NCBI RefSeq assembly: GCF_000166715.1
Contig: NZ_AEMI01000019.1
Coordinates: 62,001 to 126,000, forward strand
Reading direction: 5' to 3'
From: Leuconostoc gelidum subsp. gelidum KCTC 3527
GTDB taxonomy: Bacteria; Bacillota; Bacilli; Lactobacillales; Lactobacillaceae
Length of the DNA: 64,000 nucleotides
Below, one piece after another: positions 8,398 through 61,916 of this stretch. A program made the translations under genes and the position numbers. The notes beneath the pieces were generated by a model. That model searched no databases and had not been told where the DNA came from. It saw nothing but the letters and a program-made list of their open reading frames with translations. Position 1 is the stretch's first letter; the number at the start of each line of letters is the position of its first letter.

Positions 8398-9622
8398 AAA
8401 GTATCCAGAACTAACACAACTTTTTTTGAAATATGTTGCAGTTGACACACAATCTGATGAAAATTCACAAACAGTCCCTTCATCTCCTAAGGAAGTCGAT
8501 TTTTTGTCTAACTTAGCTGAAGAACTACAAGTTATTGGATTAACAAATGTTCGCATAATGCCAGATGGCTATGTTTTTGCTGAGTTAGCAAGTAATACTG
8601 ACAACAAAAAAATACCAACCATTGGTTTTATTGCGCATGTTGATACGGCAGATTTTAATGGTAGCAATGTTAAACCACAAATAATTGAAAATTATGATGG
8701 TGAATCCAATATAAACTTGGGGAATAGTGGTTATATACTTAAACCAACAGAATTTCCAAGTTTGAAAAAATACGTTGGCCACACTTTGATCACAACAGAC
8801 GGTATGACTTTACTTGGGGCTGATGACAAGGCTGGAGTTGCAGAAATAGTAACCGCTGCAAAATATCTCGTGTCTCATCCAGATATTTTGCATGGGGATT
8901 TACGTTTTGCTTTTGGCCCAGACGAAGAAATTGGTATTGGGGCAGACAATTTTGATACGAATGCCTTTGGTGCTGATTTTGCTTACACAGTTGATGGTGG
9001 ACCTGCTGGTGAGTTGGAATGGGAAACATTTTCGGCAGCAAGCGCAATAGTTGATATACAGGGACGTAATGTTCATCCTGGTACTGCAAAAGATACCATG
9101 GTTAATGCTATTCAAGTCGCATTTGATTTTCATGCGCAATTACCTGAAACTGATCGTCCGGAATATACGACAGGCCGTGAAGGCTTTTGGCATGTAATGG
9201 CAATTGAAGGCAATCCAGAATCAGCACAATTACGTTACATTATACGTGATCATGACCGTGATAAATTCGACAACCGCAAGCAAAAATTATTGGATATTGT
9301 AAACCAGTTCAACACGAAATTTGGTCAAGAACGTGTAACTATCACACTAAAGGATCAGTATTATAATATGGGCGAAATTTTAAAGGATGATATGCGATCA
9401 GTATCATTAGCCAAAGAAGCGATGCTAGCACTAAACATTAATCCTATTATCGAACCTGTTCGTGGTGGTACGGATGGTTCAAAGATCACTTTTCTTGGTT
9501 TGCCAACACCAAATCTGTTTGCTGGTGGTGAGAATATGCATGGTCGTTTTGAGTATGTGTCTACGACTGTGATGTCACAGGCCACCGATACGATTTTAAA
9601 AATTATTGCATTAGCAAAATAA
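8387..9622 (+). CDS. pepT: Peptidase T (tripeptidase)
   Basis: Cytoplasmic zinc tripeptidase of family M20 that removes N-terminal residues from tripeptides. The protein from ATG 8387 has 411 residues, the normal size. Metal and catalytic segments appear in order: AHVDTA, GADDKAG, PDEEIGIGA, YTVDGG, the dimerisation domain with GRNVHPGTAK, RGGTDGSKI, and ENMHGRFE. The start is chosen by family alignment (MKNEKYPELTQLFLKYV); in-frame ATG 8378 is also possible. No good ribosome binding site lies before either, see the leader ORF at 8329. Confidence 0.93.
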   Translation: MKNEKYPELTQLFLKYVAVDTQSDENSQTVPSSPKEVDFLSNLAEELQVIGLTNVRIMPDGYVFAELASNTDNKKIPTIGFIAHVDTADFNGSNVKPQIIENYDGESNINLGNSGYILKPTEFPSLKKYVGHTLITTDGMTLLGADDKAGVAEIVTAAKYLVSHPDILHGDLRFAFGPDEEIGIGADNFDTNAFGADFAYTVDGGPAGELEWETFSAASAIVDIQGRNVHPGTAKDTMVNAIQVAFDFHAQLPETDRPEYTTGREGFWHVMAIEGNPESAQLRYIIRDHDRDKFDNRKQKLLDIVNQFNTKFGQERVTITLKDQYYNMGEILKDDMRSVSLAKEAMLALNINPIIEPVRGGTDGSKITFLGLPTPNLFAGGENMHGRFEYVSTTVMSQATDTILKIIALAK

Positions 9623-25334: not shown

Positions 25335-25412
25335 AAATGATTTTTAATAACAGTTGTTTTAGAATTTATTAACGATATGCAAGTTATTTATGACTAATCG
25401 TTATTATCATTT

Positions 25413-54034: not shown

Positions 54035-54186
54035 AGGAGCAGATGGTATCCTACAATATTAGAGTGATCATTGTATAATGTAGCCAAAGGAAGAAATCAT
54101 GCAAAGATGATAATCAAAAGAATTTAAGGAAACTATATTAGGAGTTTATGTATGATAGAATGTAAAATTTAAGTTGAGGGAAAATT

Positions 54187-54915
54187 ATGAACAGTATAAT
54201 TATAAGTGTTAAAAATATAACTAAGGAAATAGTGTTAGGGAAATCGAATAATAAAATAAGAATAATAAATGACATTTCTTTTGAAATAAATAAAGGTGAA
54301 TTTTTGAGTATAGTTGGTCCATCTGGCTCTGGTAAAAGTACATTATTAAATATTATCTCTGGCTTATCAGCACCGACAACAGGGACGGTTTTTTTAGAAA
54401 GTCAAAATATATATAAGCTAGGATCAACAAAGTTAGCCAGATTAAGAAGAGAAAGAATTGGATTTATTTTTCAACAATACAATTTAATTTCTGCTCTACC
54501 AGTATTTGAAAATATTTCTTTGCAATTAAGATTGAGCCATCAAAAAATTTCTAAGGCTCAAATTGATAAATTACTTAAAAGTATTAATTTTGAACCAAAG
54601 GCAACTGCAAGTATTGATTCCCTTTCTGGAGGAGAGAAACAAAAAGTTGCTATAGCCAGAGTATTAGCAACTGACTCTGAAATTATTTTTGCAGATGAGC
54701 CAACAGGTGCATTAGACTCCATCTCAAGAGAAAAAGTATTTAATATTCTAAAAGAAATAACTAAGCAAGGGAAAACAGTTATCATGGTAACTCATGATAT
54801 TGAGATGGCGTCGAGAACTGATAGAGCAATTATTATACGTGATGGAAAAATACAAAATATTTTATCGAAGCCTACTGAAACTTTAATCCTTCACGAGATG
54901 GGGGGCAACTTATAA
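54187..54915 (+). CDS. ABC transporter ATP-binding protein
   Basis: 242 residues: Walker A GPSGSGKST, Q-loop FIFQQYNLI, signature LSGGEKQKVAIARVL, Walker B IIFADEPTGALD, H-loop VTHD, the MacB/BceA group. GAGGGAAAA precedes ATG 54187. The base composition is more AT-rich than the upstream core genes, which suggests transfer. The permease follows at once. Confidence 0.92.
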   Translation: MNSIIISVKNITKEIVLGKSNNKIRIINDISFEINKGEFLSIVGPSGSGKSTLLNIISGLSAPTTGTVFLESQNIYKLGSTKLARLRRERIGFIFQQYNLISALPVFENISLQLRLSHQKISKAQIDKLLKSINFEPKATASIDSLSGGEKQKVAIARVLATDSEIIFADEPTGALDSISREKVFNILKEITKQGKTVIMVTHDIEMASRTDRAIIIRDGKIQNILSKPTETLILHEMGGNL

Positions 54916-54916
54916 T

Positions 54917-56278
54917 ATGATTTCACAAGCATGGCTTCAATTTAAATATTCTTGGAAAATATGGATTTTTTCGCTTCCTGTTTTTATTACTTCTGCTTTT
55001 ATAATTAATATGTGCCTAACTAATTATTTTAATTTTATTAATAGTAGTTGGATAAATGATGATATATTAGCTAATACACAACTTTTTTTTATTCCAATAT
55101 TATTTGGTAGTATCATGATACCAATAGTTTTAAAAAATACTGTTAGAGAAATATTAAATGGTTTGAGAAAACAAAACAATCTACAAGTTATTTTGGGATT
55201 AACACCAGAGTATCTCGCTATTCTATCAGGTATAGAATTATCTATTGTAAGTACCGTGGGTACAATATTGGGTTCTATTATATCAACTCCCTTTGCTCAA
55301 ATGTTTTATAATTTTTTTGTCAGTACTCAAGGATCTCATCAATTTCCCCCTATGACTATCAAGTTCTCATTTCAATCTTTCATTATCACACTACTACTAA
55401 TTACAATAGTAACTTTTTACAGTGGATATATTCGTTCAAGACGTACATTCTATAAAATCCAAAAAAATATTGAAAACATGAACATAAAAAGTAATGATAG
55501 ATTTTATTACACAAAAGTGATAGTGATGTTAATTTTAAATATAGCTATAATTGCATATTTTCTGTCACTTTTACCAGAAAGATTAGGAATTAATTCTTTT
55601 GGTATCCTAAGCATTTTATTAATTTTCTTAGAAATTATTGCAATATCATTATTAATAATTGTATGTGGAAAAATAATCTTATTGATATTTTCTAAAACTT
55701 TTAATATTATATCAAATAGATTCAAATTATCTTTGTTAAACTTGGCAACTTATAATATTAATGATAATGACGATATTTTCAAAAGGATCTATATTCCAGT
55801 AGCAATTATAAACATATTTATTTCGGGATTTTCGTCACTACTTATTGATTTACCTGATGGTGGGGATTCAGGGACTAGAACATCAAATATGGTTGTATTT
55901 TTAAGTGCTCCAATACTTATTACAGTAGCAAATACTATATGTATGATGCTGCTACTACAAGAAAAAGAAACATTTGAAATGAAACAATTATTTATTTTAG
56001 GTTTAAGACCTTTAGATATTTTTTTAAAAAAAGAATTGGAAATTTTGATTTATTCATTTACAACATTAATAATATCTTTGACGTGTAATTTTGTATTGAG
56101 TTTAATGTTTGTTAGAATAACCCAACTGTTTAATAAAACCATGGTTTGGATTAATATCTGGCTCCCCTCCCTTTTACTTTCATTAGCGATCTTTGTATTA
56201 ATGTCAATTGTAGATATGATAAAGGTAATAAACACGAAATGGGATATTTTAGAATTCAATATAGATACAGATTTCTAG
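54917..56278 (+). CDS. ABC transporter permease (FtsX-like)
   Basis: 453 residues with about ten hydrophobic segments. The N-terminal helix, a first FtsX-like cluster near 55-145, a second cluster near 205-260 and the last helices near 325-445 give a BceB-like or bacteriocin-immunity-like layout with a duplicated membrane part. ATG 54917 overlaps the ATPase end almost directly. No substrate can be named. Confidence 0.82.
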   Translation: MISQAWLQFKYSWKIWIFSLPVFITSAFIINMCLTNYFNFINSSWINDDILANTQLFFIPILFGSIMIPIVLKNTVREILNGLRKQNNLQVILGLTPEYLAILSGIELSIVSTVGTILGSIISTPFAQMFYNFFVSTQGSHQFPPMTIKFSFQSFIITLLLITIVTFYSGYIRSRRTFYKIQKNIENMNIKSNDRFYYTKVIVMLILNIAIIAYFLSLLPERLGINSFGILSILLIFLEIIAISLLIIVCGKIILLIFSKTFNIISNRFKLSLLNLATYNINDNDDIFKRIYIPVAIINIFISGFSSLLIDLPDGGDSGTRTSNMVVFLSAPILITVANTICMMLLLQEKETFEMKQLFILGLRPLDIFLKKELEILIYSFTTLIISLTCNFVLSLMFVRITQLFNKTMVWINIWLPSLLLSLAIFVLMSIVDMIKVINTKWDILEFNIDTDF

Positions 56279-56388
56279 TAAATTAATGTTTTGCAAAATT
56301 AATAAAATAAGAAGACTAGTTGTACCCGCAAATTTTTTTAGTGTTTTATTTTAAGGAATCTTTGAGTAAATTTCAAAAGGAGATTTTT

Positions 56389-56502
56389 ATGAAAGTAACA
56401 AGAGACATGGTTGAGAATGAAATTAAGAAATTGGGCTTAGACATTTTTTTAAATGCACACGAAGTCGATTCAAATATCATAAAAAAGCCAGTTAATAAAT
56501 AG
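56389..56502 (+). CDS. 37-residue peptide downstream of the ABC pair
   Basis: AAAAGGAGA at 56376-56384 precedes ATG 56389. The peptide starts MKVTRDMVENEIKKLG and ends NIIKKPVNK; it has an amphipathic helix, no Cys, no double-glycine and no membrane segment. It has the best translation start of the neighbourhood. It might be a secreted peptide precursor, an unrecognised small regulator, or a truncated gene. Confidence 0.5.
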   Translation: MKVTRDMVENEIKKLGLDIFLNAHEVDSNIIKKPVNK

Positions 56503-56533
56503 TCAATGCAGTGATGACATTGGATAATTTTTG

Positions 56534-56750
56534 CTATCCGTCTTGCTGAAGCTGTAATTTTTTTGCGGTGAAAATGGGTTGATTATTATTGATTTCAACA
56601 ACTATTTGTCCACTGTAGTTTAAACTCGCAAGTTCATCATTTTGCGTTGGTGTACTACTTTGTTTTTCGAGATTGACAACTTGTGACTGCGTTTCAATTG
56701 AAGCAATTCTTTGTAAAATAGTGACACGGTTTAAATGTGCAATTCGGTAT
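56534..56750 (-). pseudogene. Truncated minus-strand coding remnant
   Basis: On the minus strand an open frame reads RIAHLNRVTILQRIAS, later SGQIVVEINNNQPIF and ends TAKKLQLQQDG-stop at 56534. It looks like genuine coding by composition but has no start; sequence upstream in frame degenerates. Family not recognised. Confidence 0.35.
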
Positions 56751-56836
56751 ATTTATATTCCTTTGTGTTAAAATAAAGATATTAGAAAACTTTTATAAAA
56801 GAACTAAAATAATTCAAAAAGTGGAGGTAAAAGTAA

Positions 56837-57217
56837 ATGAAAGCAGTTATTCCTTTTTTAACATTTCAAACTGAGTCAAAAGATGTTATGGATTATTATG
56901 TTACTATTTTTCCTAATACCCGCGTTGTATCGAGCGTTTCTTATCCAGATCAGCCTGAATTACTCATGAATGGTCAATTGAAACTAAATGGTCTTGATTT
57001 ATATTTTTTAGATATGGGATCAGATGATAAGGTTCCTATTGAATGGGGAATCTCTTTGTATAGTGAGATGGAGTCAGAAGAAGAGTTTTATAAAGTCTTT
57101 AATCCCATTGCAAAAGATGGCGTCATCATTATGGGACCAATGCCAATTGGTGACTATAAGTTAGCAACATGGGTGACCGATAAATTTGGGGTGACCTGGC
57201 AATTTACTTATAAATAA
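56837..57217 (+). CDS. VOC-family (PhnB-like) protein
   Basis: 126 residues with two beta-alpha-beta-beta-beta units: IPFLTFQTESKDVMDYYVTIFPNTRV, NGLDLYFLDMG, and DGVIIMGPMPIGDYKLATWVTDKFGVTWQF. This is the PhnB/3-demethylubiquinone methyltransferase-like glyoxalase fold. GTGGAGG precedes ATG 56837. Function not established for this group. Confidence 0.86.
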   Translation: MKAVIPFLTFQTESKDVMDYYVTIFPNTRVVSSVSYPDQPELLMNGQLKLNGLDLYFLDMGSDDKVPIEWGISLYSEMESEEEFYKVFNPIAKDGVIIMGPMPIGDYKLATWVTDKFGVTWQFTYK

Positions 57218-57250
57218 CGAACTACTGGAATTAGAATAAATAAAAATCAA

Positions 57251-57400
57251 GGTTCTGTTGCAAGGTTTAAAAAATGAGCTAATTTGTCTCAAAATCAAAA
57301 TTTCAAAAAAATAGAAACGTTGATTTAACAGCGTTTCTATTTTTTATTTATTCCTATTTTTCCGGTTTTCATGAGCTAAATTAAACTTTGCAACAGAACC
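57251..57400. mobile_element. IS6-family 150-bp deletion derivative (MITE-like)
   Basis: GGTTCTGTTGCAAGGTTT at 57251-57268 and AAACTTTGCAACAGAACC at 57383-57400 are the terminal inverted repeats of IS6-family elements (IS1216/ISS1 type), with one mismatch. Only 114 bases lie between them, including a hairpin AATAGAAACG / CGTTTCTATT with a T run at 57307-57345. No transposase. No 8-bp target duplication is visible. Confidence 0.75.
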
Positions 57401-57627
57401 ACACTACTAAATGGTACAGAGAAATTTCAAAGAATGCTGCTGAAGATGCCCGTAATCATGATCTTTTGAATATTGCTCCTACTGATTTTTTTAGTACTTT
57501 TTTGATGATTCCAAATTCAATAGATGAACAAGAAAAAATCGGATTATTCTTCAAGCAACTCGCCAATACTATCACTTTTCATCAGCGTAAGTTAAACCTT
57601 CTTAAGGAACAAAAAAAGGGTTTCTAA
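57401..57627 (+). pseudogene. Truncated hsdS (type I restriction specificity subunit) tail
   Basis: Directly after the IS6 right repeat the frame reads into IPNSIDEQEKIGLFFKQLANTI and FHQRKLNLLKEQKKGF-stop. This is the conserved end of HsdS (PxxxEQxKIGxFFxxLDxxIxxHQRKLxxLKxxKKG). The rest of the gene is missing, so an IS6 event probably cut it. No hsdM or hsdR in the window. Confidence 0.8.
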
Positions 57628-58083
57628 AAACAATGTTTGTTTTATAAATTTGTTTTGCGCAACAATCAACTAATACAATATATTAATTTCGTTGATGTAC
57701 CGACACAAGTTATGACTCGTGCCATTGAAGCCTGTAATCAAGCGTTGGCAAAGATACCACAAAATCATCAATGGGTGGCATCTTGGCATTGACTATGTCT
57801 GGTTTAATTGCTTTAGGTGTTTTGATATGCAAGCATAAGAATTTGTAACATTCTTTCCTTTGCAGTTAAGAATAATTTGCTATTTCACATTAAAAAAACT
57901 AGGATTAATCATTCGTATAGGTATATTATAATACAAAGGCATTAATACTATATTGATCTTTTTCAGTACTTTTAAAAAAATTGGAGGATTAATAAAAATA
58001 CCTTGCGTTGTTTTTATTGCATTAGAGGCTGTAGTCAAATTAGGGTGTTCATTCAAAGATTAAATAAACTATGAGGTTAAAAA
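57628..58083. other. 456-bp stretch with coding fragments only
   Basis: Short reads such as MTRAIEACNQALAKIPQNHQ and GGILALTMSGLIALGVLICK (57690-57850) look like broken plasmid membrane-protein pieces in shifted frames. A GGAGG at 57982-57986 is not followed by a start codon in range. No gene can be supported. Confidence 0.4.
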
Positions 58084-59106
58084 ATGGACACCCGAAAAAA
58101 ATCTAAACTATCAGTAGCATTACTGTGCTTATTAATTGGCTTTCCTCAAATAAGTGAGTCAATATTTACACCAATATTACCCACACTGAGCAATGCATTA
58201 AATGTTACCGATTCTAACATTCAACTGACTGTGAGTATTTATTTTATTGGATTCGCTCTAGGCGTATTAATTTGGGGTATACTATCTGATAAATATGGCA
58301 GAAAGCCAATCATGCTACTAGGGCTTTTGATATATCTGTTAGGAAATATCTTTTTACTCTGTTCTAATGACTTTCACTCAATTGGGCCGATTATTGGCGC
58401 ACAATTAGAAACTCATTTTCATTATATGAGCGTATTTTTATTTCTGATAGCATTGGCCACGATCTTGTTGATACTCAATTTCGTGAAGTTACCTGAAACT
58501 AACTTGCTAAAAGTTGATTATTCAACCAAAGACATAATTGCTGTTGTATTGAGATTACTAAAAGACAGATTCGTTCTGTTGAATGCTTTTGCAATTGCCG
58601 TATTTAATGCAATATTGTTTAACTTTTACTCCGAAGCACCATTCATTTTTATTAATAATTTAAAACTTAGTACAGGTGCATATAATACGGGAATTTTAAT
58701 TGCTCTAGGAACGATTACAGGAGCCTATGTAGTGAATAGTTTGGCTGTCAAAACTAGTAGTTTCGATGTTATTCGATTAGGAATTAGTATAGCAGTTGCT
58801 TTCTCAATTTTTTCAATTTTTACTTTTGCTAACGCCAATATTTTTATGATTTATATCTCGATTTTTGGCATATTCTTAGGTATCAATATTGCATTACCTG
58901 TCATTCTTAAAACATCTTTATACGCTTATGAAGATGTAATCGGGATTGCTAGTGGCATTTTTGGTTTTATGTATTATTGTATGATTGGTGTTTTAACATT
59001 CATCATGAGCGTAATTCATACAGGCAACATATTAGTTTTTCCAATATACACGTTGGCGTTGGCAATAGGTTTATCCGTACTGATTTTGATCAATAAAAAA
59101 TTTTAA
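58084..59106 (+). CDS. Bcr/CflA-type MFS drug transporter with internal deletion
   Basis: 340 residues; relatives have about 400. N-terminal helices and motif A (GILSDKYGRKPIM) are normal. At LLCSNDFHSIGPIIGAQL the sequence jumps from the end of helix 3 loop to the GPxIG motif of helix 5, so roughly 55 residues covering one or two helices (including the RFLQAxG segment) are missing while the frame is kept. The remaining C-terminal half is intact. Function is doubtful. Confidence 0.8.
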   Translation: MDTRKKSKLSVALLCLLIGFPQISESIFTPILPTLSNALNVTDSNIQLTVSIYFIGFALGVLIWGILSDKYGRKPIMLLGLLIYLLGNIFLLCSNDFHSIGPIIGAQLETHFHYMSVFLFLIALATILLILNFVKLPETNLLKVDYSTKDIIAVVLRLLKDRFVLLNAFAIAVFNAILFNFYSEAPFIFINNLKLSTGAYNTGILIALGTITGAYVVNSLAVKTSSFDVIRLGISIAVAFSIFSIFTFANANIFMIYISIFGIFLGINIALPVILKTSLYAYEDVIGIASGIFGFMYYCMIGVLTFIMSVIHTGNILVFPIYTLALAIGLSVLILINKKF

Positions 59107-59181
59107 AAAAATGTCTAACTGACTATCAATTATGCAAAATCAATCATTTTATATGATTGGTTTTTATTTTTCTAAAAATTA

Positions 59182-59980
59182 TTGAAAGATATTCAAGACT
59201 TTACACCAGTCAAAAATCCTGAAATACAGGCAGTTGAACAAAAGTATGGCACACGGCTATTTTAAAAAGCCTTGTTAGAACAAAATATGACTTGGCATGA
59301 TTTCTTTCCAAAAAACGAGAAAATATCAAGGATATTTCACCCGTTTAGATATTGCTATCAACGATAAATGGGGGTCTACTAAGTATGAACTACCTCGTAA
59401 AAGCGGGACAAGAAAAACGTTTTTGGAGTAAATCAAAGTCCTATGCCGTTCATGGCAACGTTGATGATGGTTGGATGGTTAACTTTGGGAAATTGCCATT
59501 TGTTATTCGTGCTTATGACAAACGCAAGAAACAAGCCAGTAAAGAGAATATGATACGGGCATACAAAACCGTGTGGAACTAGAATTGCATCAAGATAAAG
59601 CAGAATATGTGATTAATGCGTGGTTTACTGATAAACTTATTGAGAAAAAGCTACTAAAAGCTGATAAAGTGCGTGATACGATTGAAGATTCAGTTGAATC
59701 GATGCCGTCATGGTCATTACTAACAGCGTTAGGTCATAAGCCCAAAGAACAGAGTGTGGAACGCATTGAAAAATGGGTTTTAGAGTCAATTTTACCAAGT
59801 CTAGCAGTCTTAAAGAAAACCGGTCATTGGTAAGAAGTTATTGAAGCAATGAATAATACTGAGCTATCAGCAGAACATCAAAAATTAGTTATGGCAACAA
59901 TGAAAACTGCCATTACACAGGCCAGTAAGACGTTGAATATCAATTTTGAAGACCCTAAGAAGAAATGTATTGAGTATTGA
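59182..59980 (+). pseudogene. Rep_trans-type replication initiator, degenerate
   Basis: Pieces in several frames: LKDIQDFTPVKNPEIQAVEQ, YFTRLDIAINDKWG, AGQEKRFWSKSKSYAVHG, FVIRAYDKRKKQAS, then after a frameshift near 59575 ELELHQDKAEYVINAWFTDK, and a stop at 59831 before EVIEAMNNTELSAEHQ. RLDIAIND, the IRAYDKRKEQ segment and VELELH are marks of the replication initiation factor family of plasmids and ICEs. At least three lesions plus a deletion. Confidence 0.7.
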
Positions 59981-60073
59981 GTCTAGTAATCAGGAAAAAG
60001 GAAAATACTGAAGACATTACTTGACGGAGAACAATTAGTCAGGATAATATAAAAATTATTTTGGAAAGTTAAC

Positions 60074-61385: not shown

Positions 61386-61916
61386 ATTTCTTATTTCACG
61401 TACGAACCATATTATAATATTAATTAGCTAGGCCTCTAATAATGAAGAATGTTATAGACAGCATTAACTCTAAAGATTTCAATAAACTGCGACGTATAAC
61501 TTATATCAAAGCACAGCAAAAATATAAATATCATGATTTTTGAAATAAAATTGTGAATTCAAGATGTTAAATAGCCTTAAAATAAGCTTTAGAAACCGTG
61601 AATAACTATTTAACATTGATGTATGAGATTGGTACAAAAGAAGTATCTTACAAATTGATTAAGCATCTGATGAATTACTTGCAAGTTTCCCCGAACACAT
61701 TAGTTAACATAATATATATTATCGAAAGTAGCATATGTCGGAAGATTTCAAGACATTTTTCCTATCTATAAAGGTATGTTAAAATATCATTCCTATTCAT
61801 TGGATTTAATTACAAATAAAAAAGCCAACACATATTCATGCTAACTTTGCAACCTAGTCCTCAATAATGAGCTAAATTGCTGTAAAAATAAAATATAGCA
61901 ACTTTGCTTAAAAAAA
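61386..61916. other. 531-bp stretch without a gene
   Basis: Multiple stops in all frames. A short frame LMYEIGTKEVSYKLIKHLMNY (61618-61680) may be a leftover of a helix-rich protein. Near 61843-61855 AACTTTGCAAC recalls an IS6 end but lacks the rest. Confidence 0.45.

Follow-up and report, generated by a model that had tools for sequence, protein, structure and literature searches.

A 150-bp unit delimited by IS6-type terminal repeats is present in the 64,000-nucleotide stretch of Leuconostoc gelidum subsp. gelidum KCTC 3527 DNA analyzed here (hereafter, the window), and it is probably a single, non-autonomous relic with IS6-family ends that lies at a rearrangement junction in imported DNA. 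It looks like a real, ordinary, one-off scar of a past rearrangement rather than a spreading mini-transposon. The positions of the unit, its component parts and its flanking features are given in Table 1.

Table 1. Coordinates of the 150-bp unit, its internal features and its immediate surroundings in the window
Feature	Position	Strand	Remarks
PF06983 gene	56837–57217	+	81% protein identity to Vagococcus allomyrinae
Left flanking 8-mer	57243–57250		AAAATCAA; without duplicate on the right
150-bp unit with IS6-type inverted repeats on both sides	57251–57400		One copy found
Left IS6-type terminal repeat	57251–57270	+	Shares its outer 13 bases with the IS1216 ends; 19/20 against right repeat
Internal 12-bp direct repeat, first copy	57274–57285	+	11/12 alike; may be chance
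17-pair terminator-like hairpin	57306–57345	+	Common lactobacillale sequence; folding and terminator scan
Internal 12-bp direct repeat, second copy	57371–57382	+	11/12 alike; may be chance
Right IS6-type terminal repeat	57381–57400	-	Outer 18 bases identical to both IS1216 ends
Right flanking 8-mer	57401–57408		ACACTACT; hsdS homology from 57403
hsdS 3' remnant (end of target-recognition domain and conserved end region)	57403–57647	+	DNA and protein homology; frame-shifted near the end

Terminal repeats and copy number

The 150 bp at positions 57251–57400 are bounded by 20-bp inverted repeats which match at 19 of 20 positions. The outer 13 bases of both repeats, GGTTCTGTTGCAA, represent the exact outer end of IS6-family elements, and position 14 is G in the left end and A in the right end. 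According to PMC6807381, members of the IS6/IS26 family end in conserved inverted repeats of 14 bp with a GG start and a G at position 7, features that are also exhibited by the unit; no open reading frame corresponding to a transposase gene was found across its 150 bp. Where the repeat is taken as 18 bp, the interior comprises 114 bases, in agreement with the initial annotation, in which both IS6 terminal repeats were described as retained around an interior of that length.

Across the draft genome as a whole (1.96 Mb in 43 contigs), there are four occurrences of the 13-mer, two at the unit and two forming the ends of a single intact IS1216; the reversed control pattern is absent from the same genome. 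The 13-mer is present in exact form in eight of the 19 genomes of the genus, including that of the strain itself, and is not wholly IS6-specific, at least three of its ten occurrences in the other genomes of the genus having a continuation unlike that of an IS6 end. Nor is a bare inverted 13-mer at such spacing rare, with two in the window and a mean of 0.4 and a maximum of 4 in 30 simulated windows. The unit is judged to be real because its two ends face each other and match IS6 ends across 18–20 bases.

The intact IS1216 (contig C31, positions 8666–9474; 809 bp) is 100% identical to plasmid copies annotated as IS1216 and represents the one match to PF13610, the IS6-type transposase, in the genome. 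This element stops one base before the contig end, and further, collapsed IS1216 copies are thus possible. Contig C31 is plasmid-like as judged by reading of its open reading frames, with putative replication and mobilization genes, frames that read as an ArsR-like regulator and a P-type ATPase for heavy metals, and a putative cation-efflux gene that extends into IS1216.

The unit resembles IS1216 in the outer 13 bases of both of its ends and in the outer 18 bases of its right end, yet it differs in that it is without a transposase, has an unrelated interior and carries GTTTAA where IS1216 has GTTTTA. On the left, agreement with IS1216 breaks off at base 14. The hexamer GTTTAA, at positions 15–20, is common to both unit repeats, and this sharing against the GTTTTA of IS1216 suggests that both ends come from one IS6-type element other than IS1216. 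Derivation from IS1216 was rejected, as only short low-complexity matches align beyond the ends.

The initial annotation had regarded the unit as a possible MITE, i.e., a short non-autonomous element mobilized in trans by an IS6 transposase such as that of the resident IS1216, and had advised a search of the genome for further copies, a single copy being named as the outcome that would speak against it. The unit is indeed short and retains both ends without a transposase, its right end equals that of IS1216 across 18 bases, an intact IS1216 resides in the genome, and two IS6-family MITEs are listed in ISfinder (PMC7986276, PMC6807381). However, the search returned only one copy, no target duplication accompanies it and its left end leaves the IS1216 sequence at base 14, so that the proposal was not upheld and mobilization as a true MITE is considered improbable.

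The searches on which this copy number is based covered several collections. In the strain's own genome, a blast-type search in which 38 of 38 candidates were scored yielded one full-length match, a second row representing the hairpin matched to itself on the opposite strand. Among 397 genomes of the family, 95 matched at E 1e-3, with both ends matched only in the strain's own genome; among 395 genomes of the order, seven matched at E 1e-7, with the whole unit again matched only there (two candidates per genome were scored in both searches). The two sets together comprise 719 different species genomes, the strain's own included, and with one genome per species searched, multiple dispersed copies were not found. 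A pattern of two exact 13-base ends 96–156 bases apart located no units of 122–182 bp between inverted repeats elsewhere, its matches (1/397 in the family and 1/395 in the order) both being the strain's own genome. The viral contigs searched returned no match to the unit, nor did phage records at E 1e-5, while 31 plasmid records matched it, none of which covered 80% of the query. A MITE family was accordingly rejected for want of copies in the own-genome, family, order, viral, plasmid and phage searches. A candidate second, decayed copy at 61830–61910 was also rejected: its score of 32 was equalled by 0.6% of shuffles, the region had been picked for its similarity, and in a scan of the whole window a low-complexity stretch near 25400 attained a higher score of 38.

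Interior of the unit

A hairpin within the unit, as initially annotated, is well supported by folding, with an MFE of -19.2 kcal/mol on the + strand (z -8.5; 0 of 200 shuffles equal) and of -14.9 on the - strand (z -4.2). Its stem contains only four G-C pairs. On the + strand it is flagged by the terminator scan and has the stable hairpin followed by a T-rich tail of a predicted intrinsic terminator; the - strand is not flagged. The hairpin part is also what the plasmid records match, 30 of the 31 at 91–95% identity across 40–45 bases and the remaining one, from Enterococcus, at 85% across 61 bases around the hairpin. For example, in a Lactiplantibacillus plasmid the hairpin adjoins an annotated Tn3-family transposase gene (tnpA), and is positioned between that gene and what we take, from its motif, to be a Tn3-type end. 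In another locus (L125), the same hairpin follows a 12-tRNA cluster, starting 24 bases beyond its last gene, and matches to the hairpin part are present in many lactobacillale genomes in the family and order searches. The hairpin is thus a predicted terminator common among lactobacillales and says little about the origin of the unit.

Two explanations concern the interior. The unit may consist of the ends of two different IS6 copies which bracket plasmid DNA after deletions, being what remains of a pseudo-compound structure. The hairpin, including that of the Enterococcus plasmid with its 61 bases at 85%, adjoins apparent Tn3-type transposon ends (the end motif beside the plasmid hairpins is presumably of that type, while tnpA is annotated), which speaks for this explanation; yet the hairpin type also occurs elsewhere, such as after the 12-tRNA cluster, which leaves a plasmid origin unproven, and the shared GTTTAA argues for one element, rendering a two-copy origin quite improbable. 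It is more improbable still that the unit is a terminator cassette, in which non-IS DNA with a terminator would be held between working IS6 ends and could be moved by the IS1216 transposase; were this so, it would shut off read-through wherever it landed.

The remainder of the interior resembles no IS6 element compared. When the left 50 and right 56 bases were searched against 72,556 plasmid records (E up to 10), 551 and 1456 records matched, respectively, and none of the matches listed exceeded 42 bits; the six plasmid regions examined match either the IS6 end with at most ~35 bases inward or A-/T-rich sequence. Furthermore, the interior is shared with none of the 26 other sequences that start with the 13-mer (up to one mismatch allowed, the unit's own two left out), the best score being 28 as compared to 110 for identity and the best-scoring sequences representing A-rich stretches; judged by how they continue, at least five of these sequences (L084, L086, L157, L158 and L159) are not IS6 ends. 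The term 'IS6 derivative' used in the initial annotation is consequently only half apt, the ends being IS6-type while the bases inside match none of the IS6 elements compared.

A simple internal deletion of an unsampled IS6 element, with the inner flanks as its subterminal sequence and the hairpin as its tnp terminator, would also account for this arrangement. Such a case is known from the Staphylococcus aureus plasmid pUB101, where a 174-bp IS257-type element (L146, positions 1201–1374) retains both ends without a transposase and is apparently an internal-deletion form. The GTTTAA common to both repeats is what a pair derived from a single element should show, and two genus g19 genomes contain IS6 elements whose right ends are 89% identical to the left 28 bases of the unit. 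In contrast, the interior is shared by no IS6 element in the examined plasmid matches, the aligned sequences or the searched genomes, and no trace of the start or end of tnp was found in it on reading. An internal deletion is on balance unlikely; it concerns the origin of the interior and may be combined with the preferred explanation of the unit as a relic at a rearrangement junction.

The motif TGAGCTAAWTT occurs four times in the window (48926, 57275, 57372 and 61868) as compared to 0.26 expected, and none of 100 shuffles reached four; this motif was picked after the fact, two of the four occurrences are those of the direct repeat inside the unit, and the alignments extend little. An Rfam search of positions 56500–58100 returned no match, and no tRNA genes were found in 56000–59000.

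Flanking sequences and the hsdS remnant

No 8-bp target duplication is present at the unit, the left (AAAATCAA) and right (ACACTACT) flanking 8-mers being alike at 3 of 8 positions. The 8-bp target duplication of IS6 elements can disappear after a deletion or cointegrate event. As the 8-mers are unduplicated, the present flanks do not look like the product of one clean insertion.

On the right, similarity to plasmid hsdS genes sets in at 57403 on the DNA level, 2 bp outside the repeat, and at residue 6 of the reading frame on the protein level, in support of the earlier description of an hsdS end that abuts the repeat. The extent given to this hsdS end required revision: a shift of reading frame close to its terminus carries the homology beyond the open reading frame stop at 57627, as far as 57647. 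The top protein matches are plasmid HsdS proteins, the best with 77% identity over 74 residues (6–79; Lactococcus). Compared with the HsdS of Lactococcus plasmid pG325 (420 codons including the stop), the remnant matches residues 127–200 best. Its final bases correspond to the 3' terminus of that gene, and the remnant is therefore most readily taken as the 3' end of an hsdS gene in which the matching recognition domain would have occupied second place. An hsdS gene encodes two target-recognition domains and two conserved regions, of which one domain end and one conserved region are left here, and the PF01420 score of the remnant (18.9 bits) is below the 22-bit cut-off.

A Methylase_S profile search of the strain's own genome returned no match, the remnant itself being missed (the control rang in 9 of 14 genomes), and no HsdM relative was found there in a search run without a positive control; small pieces may therefore have been missed by both. 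Elsewhere in the genus, 10 of 18 genomes contain HsdS relatives, whose similarity is confined to short stretches and does not exceed 74%. The initial annotation held that the remnant marks the loss of a type I restriction system, a view which agrees with the lack of any other HsdS or HsdM in these searches of the genome; the import of a plasmid fragment that was already broken would give the same picture.

On the left, DNA homology to the PF06983 gene of V. allomyrinae ends with the stop codon, which lies 33 bp short of the unit. In the scan of species genomes, V. allomyrinae provides the closest relative of this gene (81% at the protein level), the next best being 48% among the best 80 loci. 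Further upstream, within 54178–56373, genes for an ABC transporter ATPase and permease exhibit 85.3–85.6% identity to a Melissococcus plutonius plasmid pair (four records), which suggests, by sequence similarity, transfer between the M. plutonius lineage and this one. Downstream, two neighbouring reading frames at 59352–59833 with weak Rep_trans matches below cut-off possibly represent a broken rolling-circle plasmid replication gene; a plasmid DNA search of the rep-like region (59180–60010) returned no match. The neighbourhood as a whole looks like a mosaic of decayed imported DNA.

Proposed origin and relation to known elements

Under the relic explanation, an IS6-type element other than the resident IS1216 would have been located in, or would have jumped into, a plasmid-type hsdS gene. 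The 5' part of hsdS would subsequently have been deleted, either by an intramolecular event of the IS6 type (adjacent deletion) or through integration of a plasmid, so that the opposite end of the element came to lie against what follows the PF06983 gene. The transposase gene would have been lost, leaving both ends around ~110 bases with the terminator-like hairpin, and at most the present function of the unit would be to terminate transcription between the PF06983 gene and downstream sequences. Intramolecular transposition of the IS6 type is described in PMC7986276 as generating deletions or inversions that adjoin the element. An adjacent deletion would explain both the truncation of hsdS at the outer edge of the repeat and the foreign flank opposite. 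The order of these events is inferred, as are a deletion mediated by IS6 and a transposase gene that was once present; as the interior matches no IS6 element compared, the loss of that gene from an ordinary IS6 element is similarly a matter of inference. Both ends are intact across at least 13 bases, and a transposase could thus in principle still use them.

As it stands, the unit carries little weight, being a further example of a scar with IS6 ends from a lactic acid bacterium, and it illustrates that an intact pair of IS6 ends is by itself insufficient ground for a MITE call. Should copies turn up, it would provide a small and easily assayed substrate for an IS6 transposase acting in trans.

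Short IS6 forms that lack a transposase are already known, i.e., the two ISfinder MITEs and the 174-bp form of pUB101. A literature search for IS6-family MITEs in lactic acid bacteria listed no paper, and among the papers searched the names MITEBth2 and MITEHarch3 appeared only in PMC6807381. These two MITEs resemble the unit in possessing both IS6 ends and no transposase, and two unnamed examples of IS6-family MITEs are 227 and 336 bp in length (PMC7986276); compared by description only, the unit is shorter and was found once. The pUB101 form likewise lies between inverted repeats, is similar in size and is without a transposase, but its bases 1–137 are up to 97.8% identical to full IS6/IS257 elements, whereas the interior of the unit matches none of those compared. 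Finally, the hsdS remnant shares its 77% identity over 74 residues with HsdS proteins of lactococcal and enterococcal plasmids such as pG325, and differs from such systems in being a frame-shifted 3' piece without an adjoining hsdR or hsdM gene.
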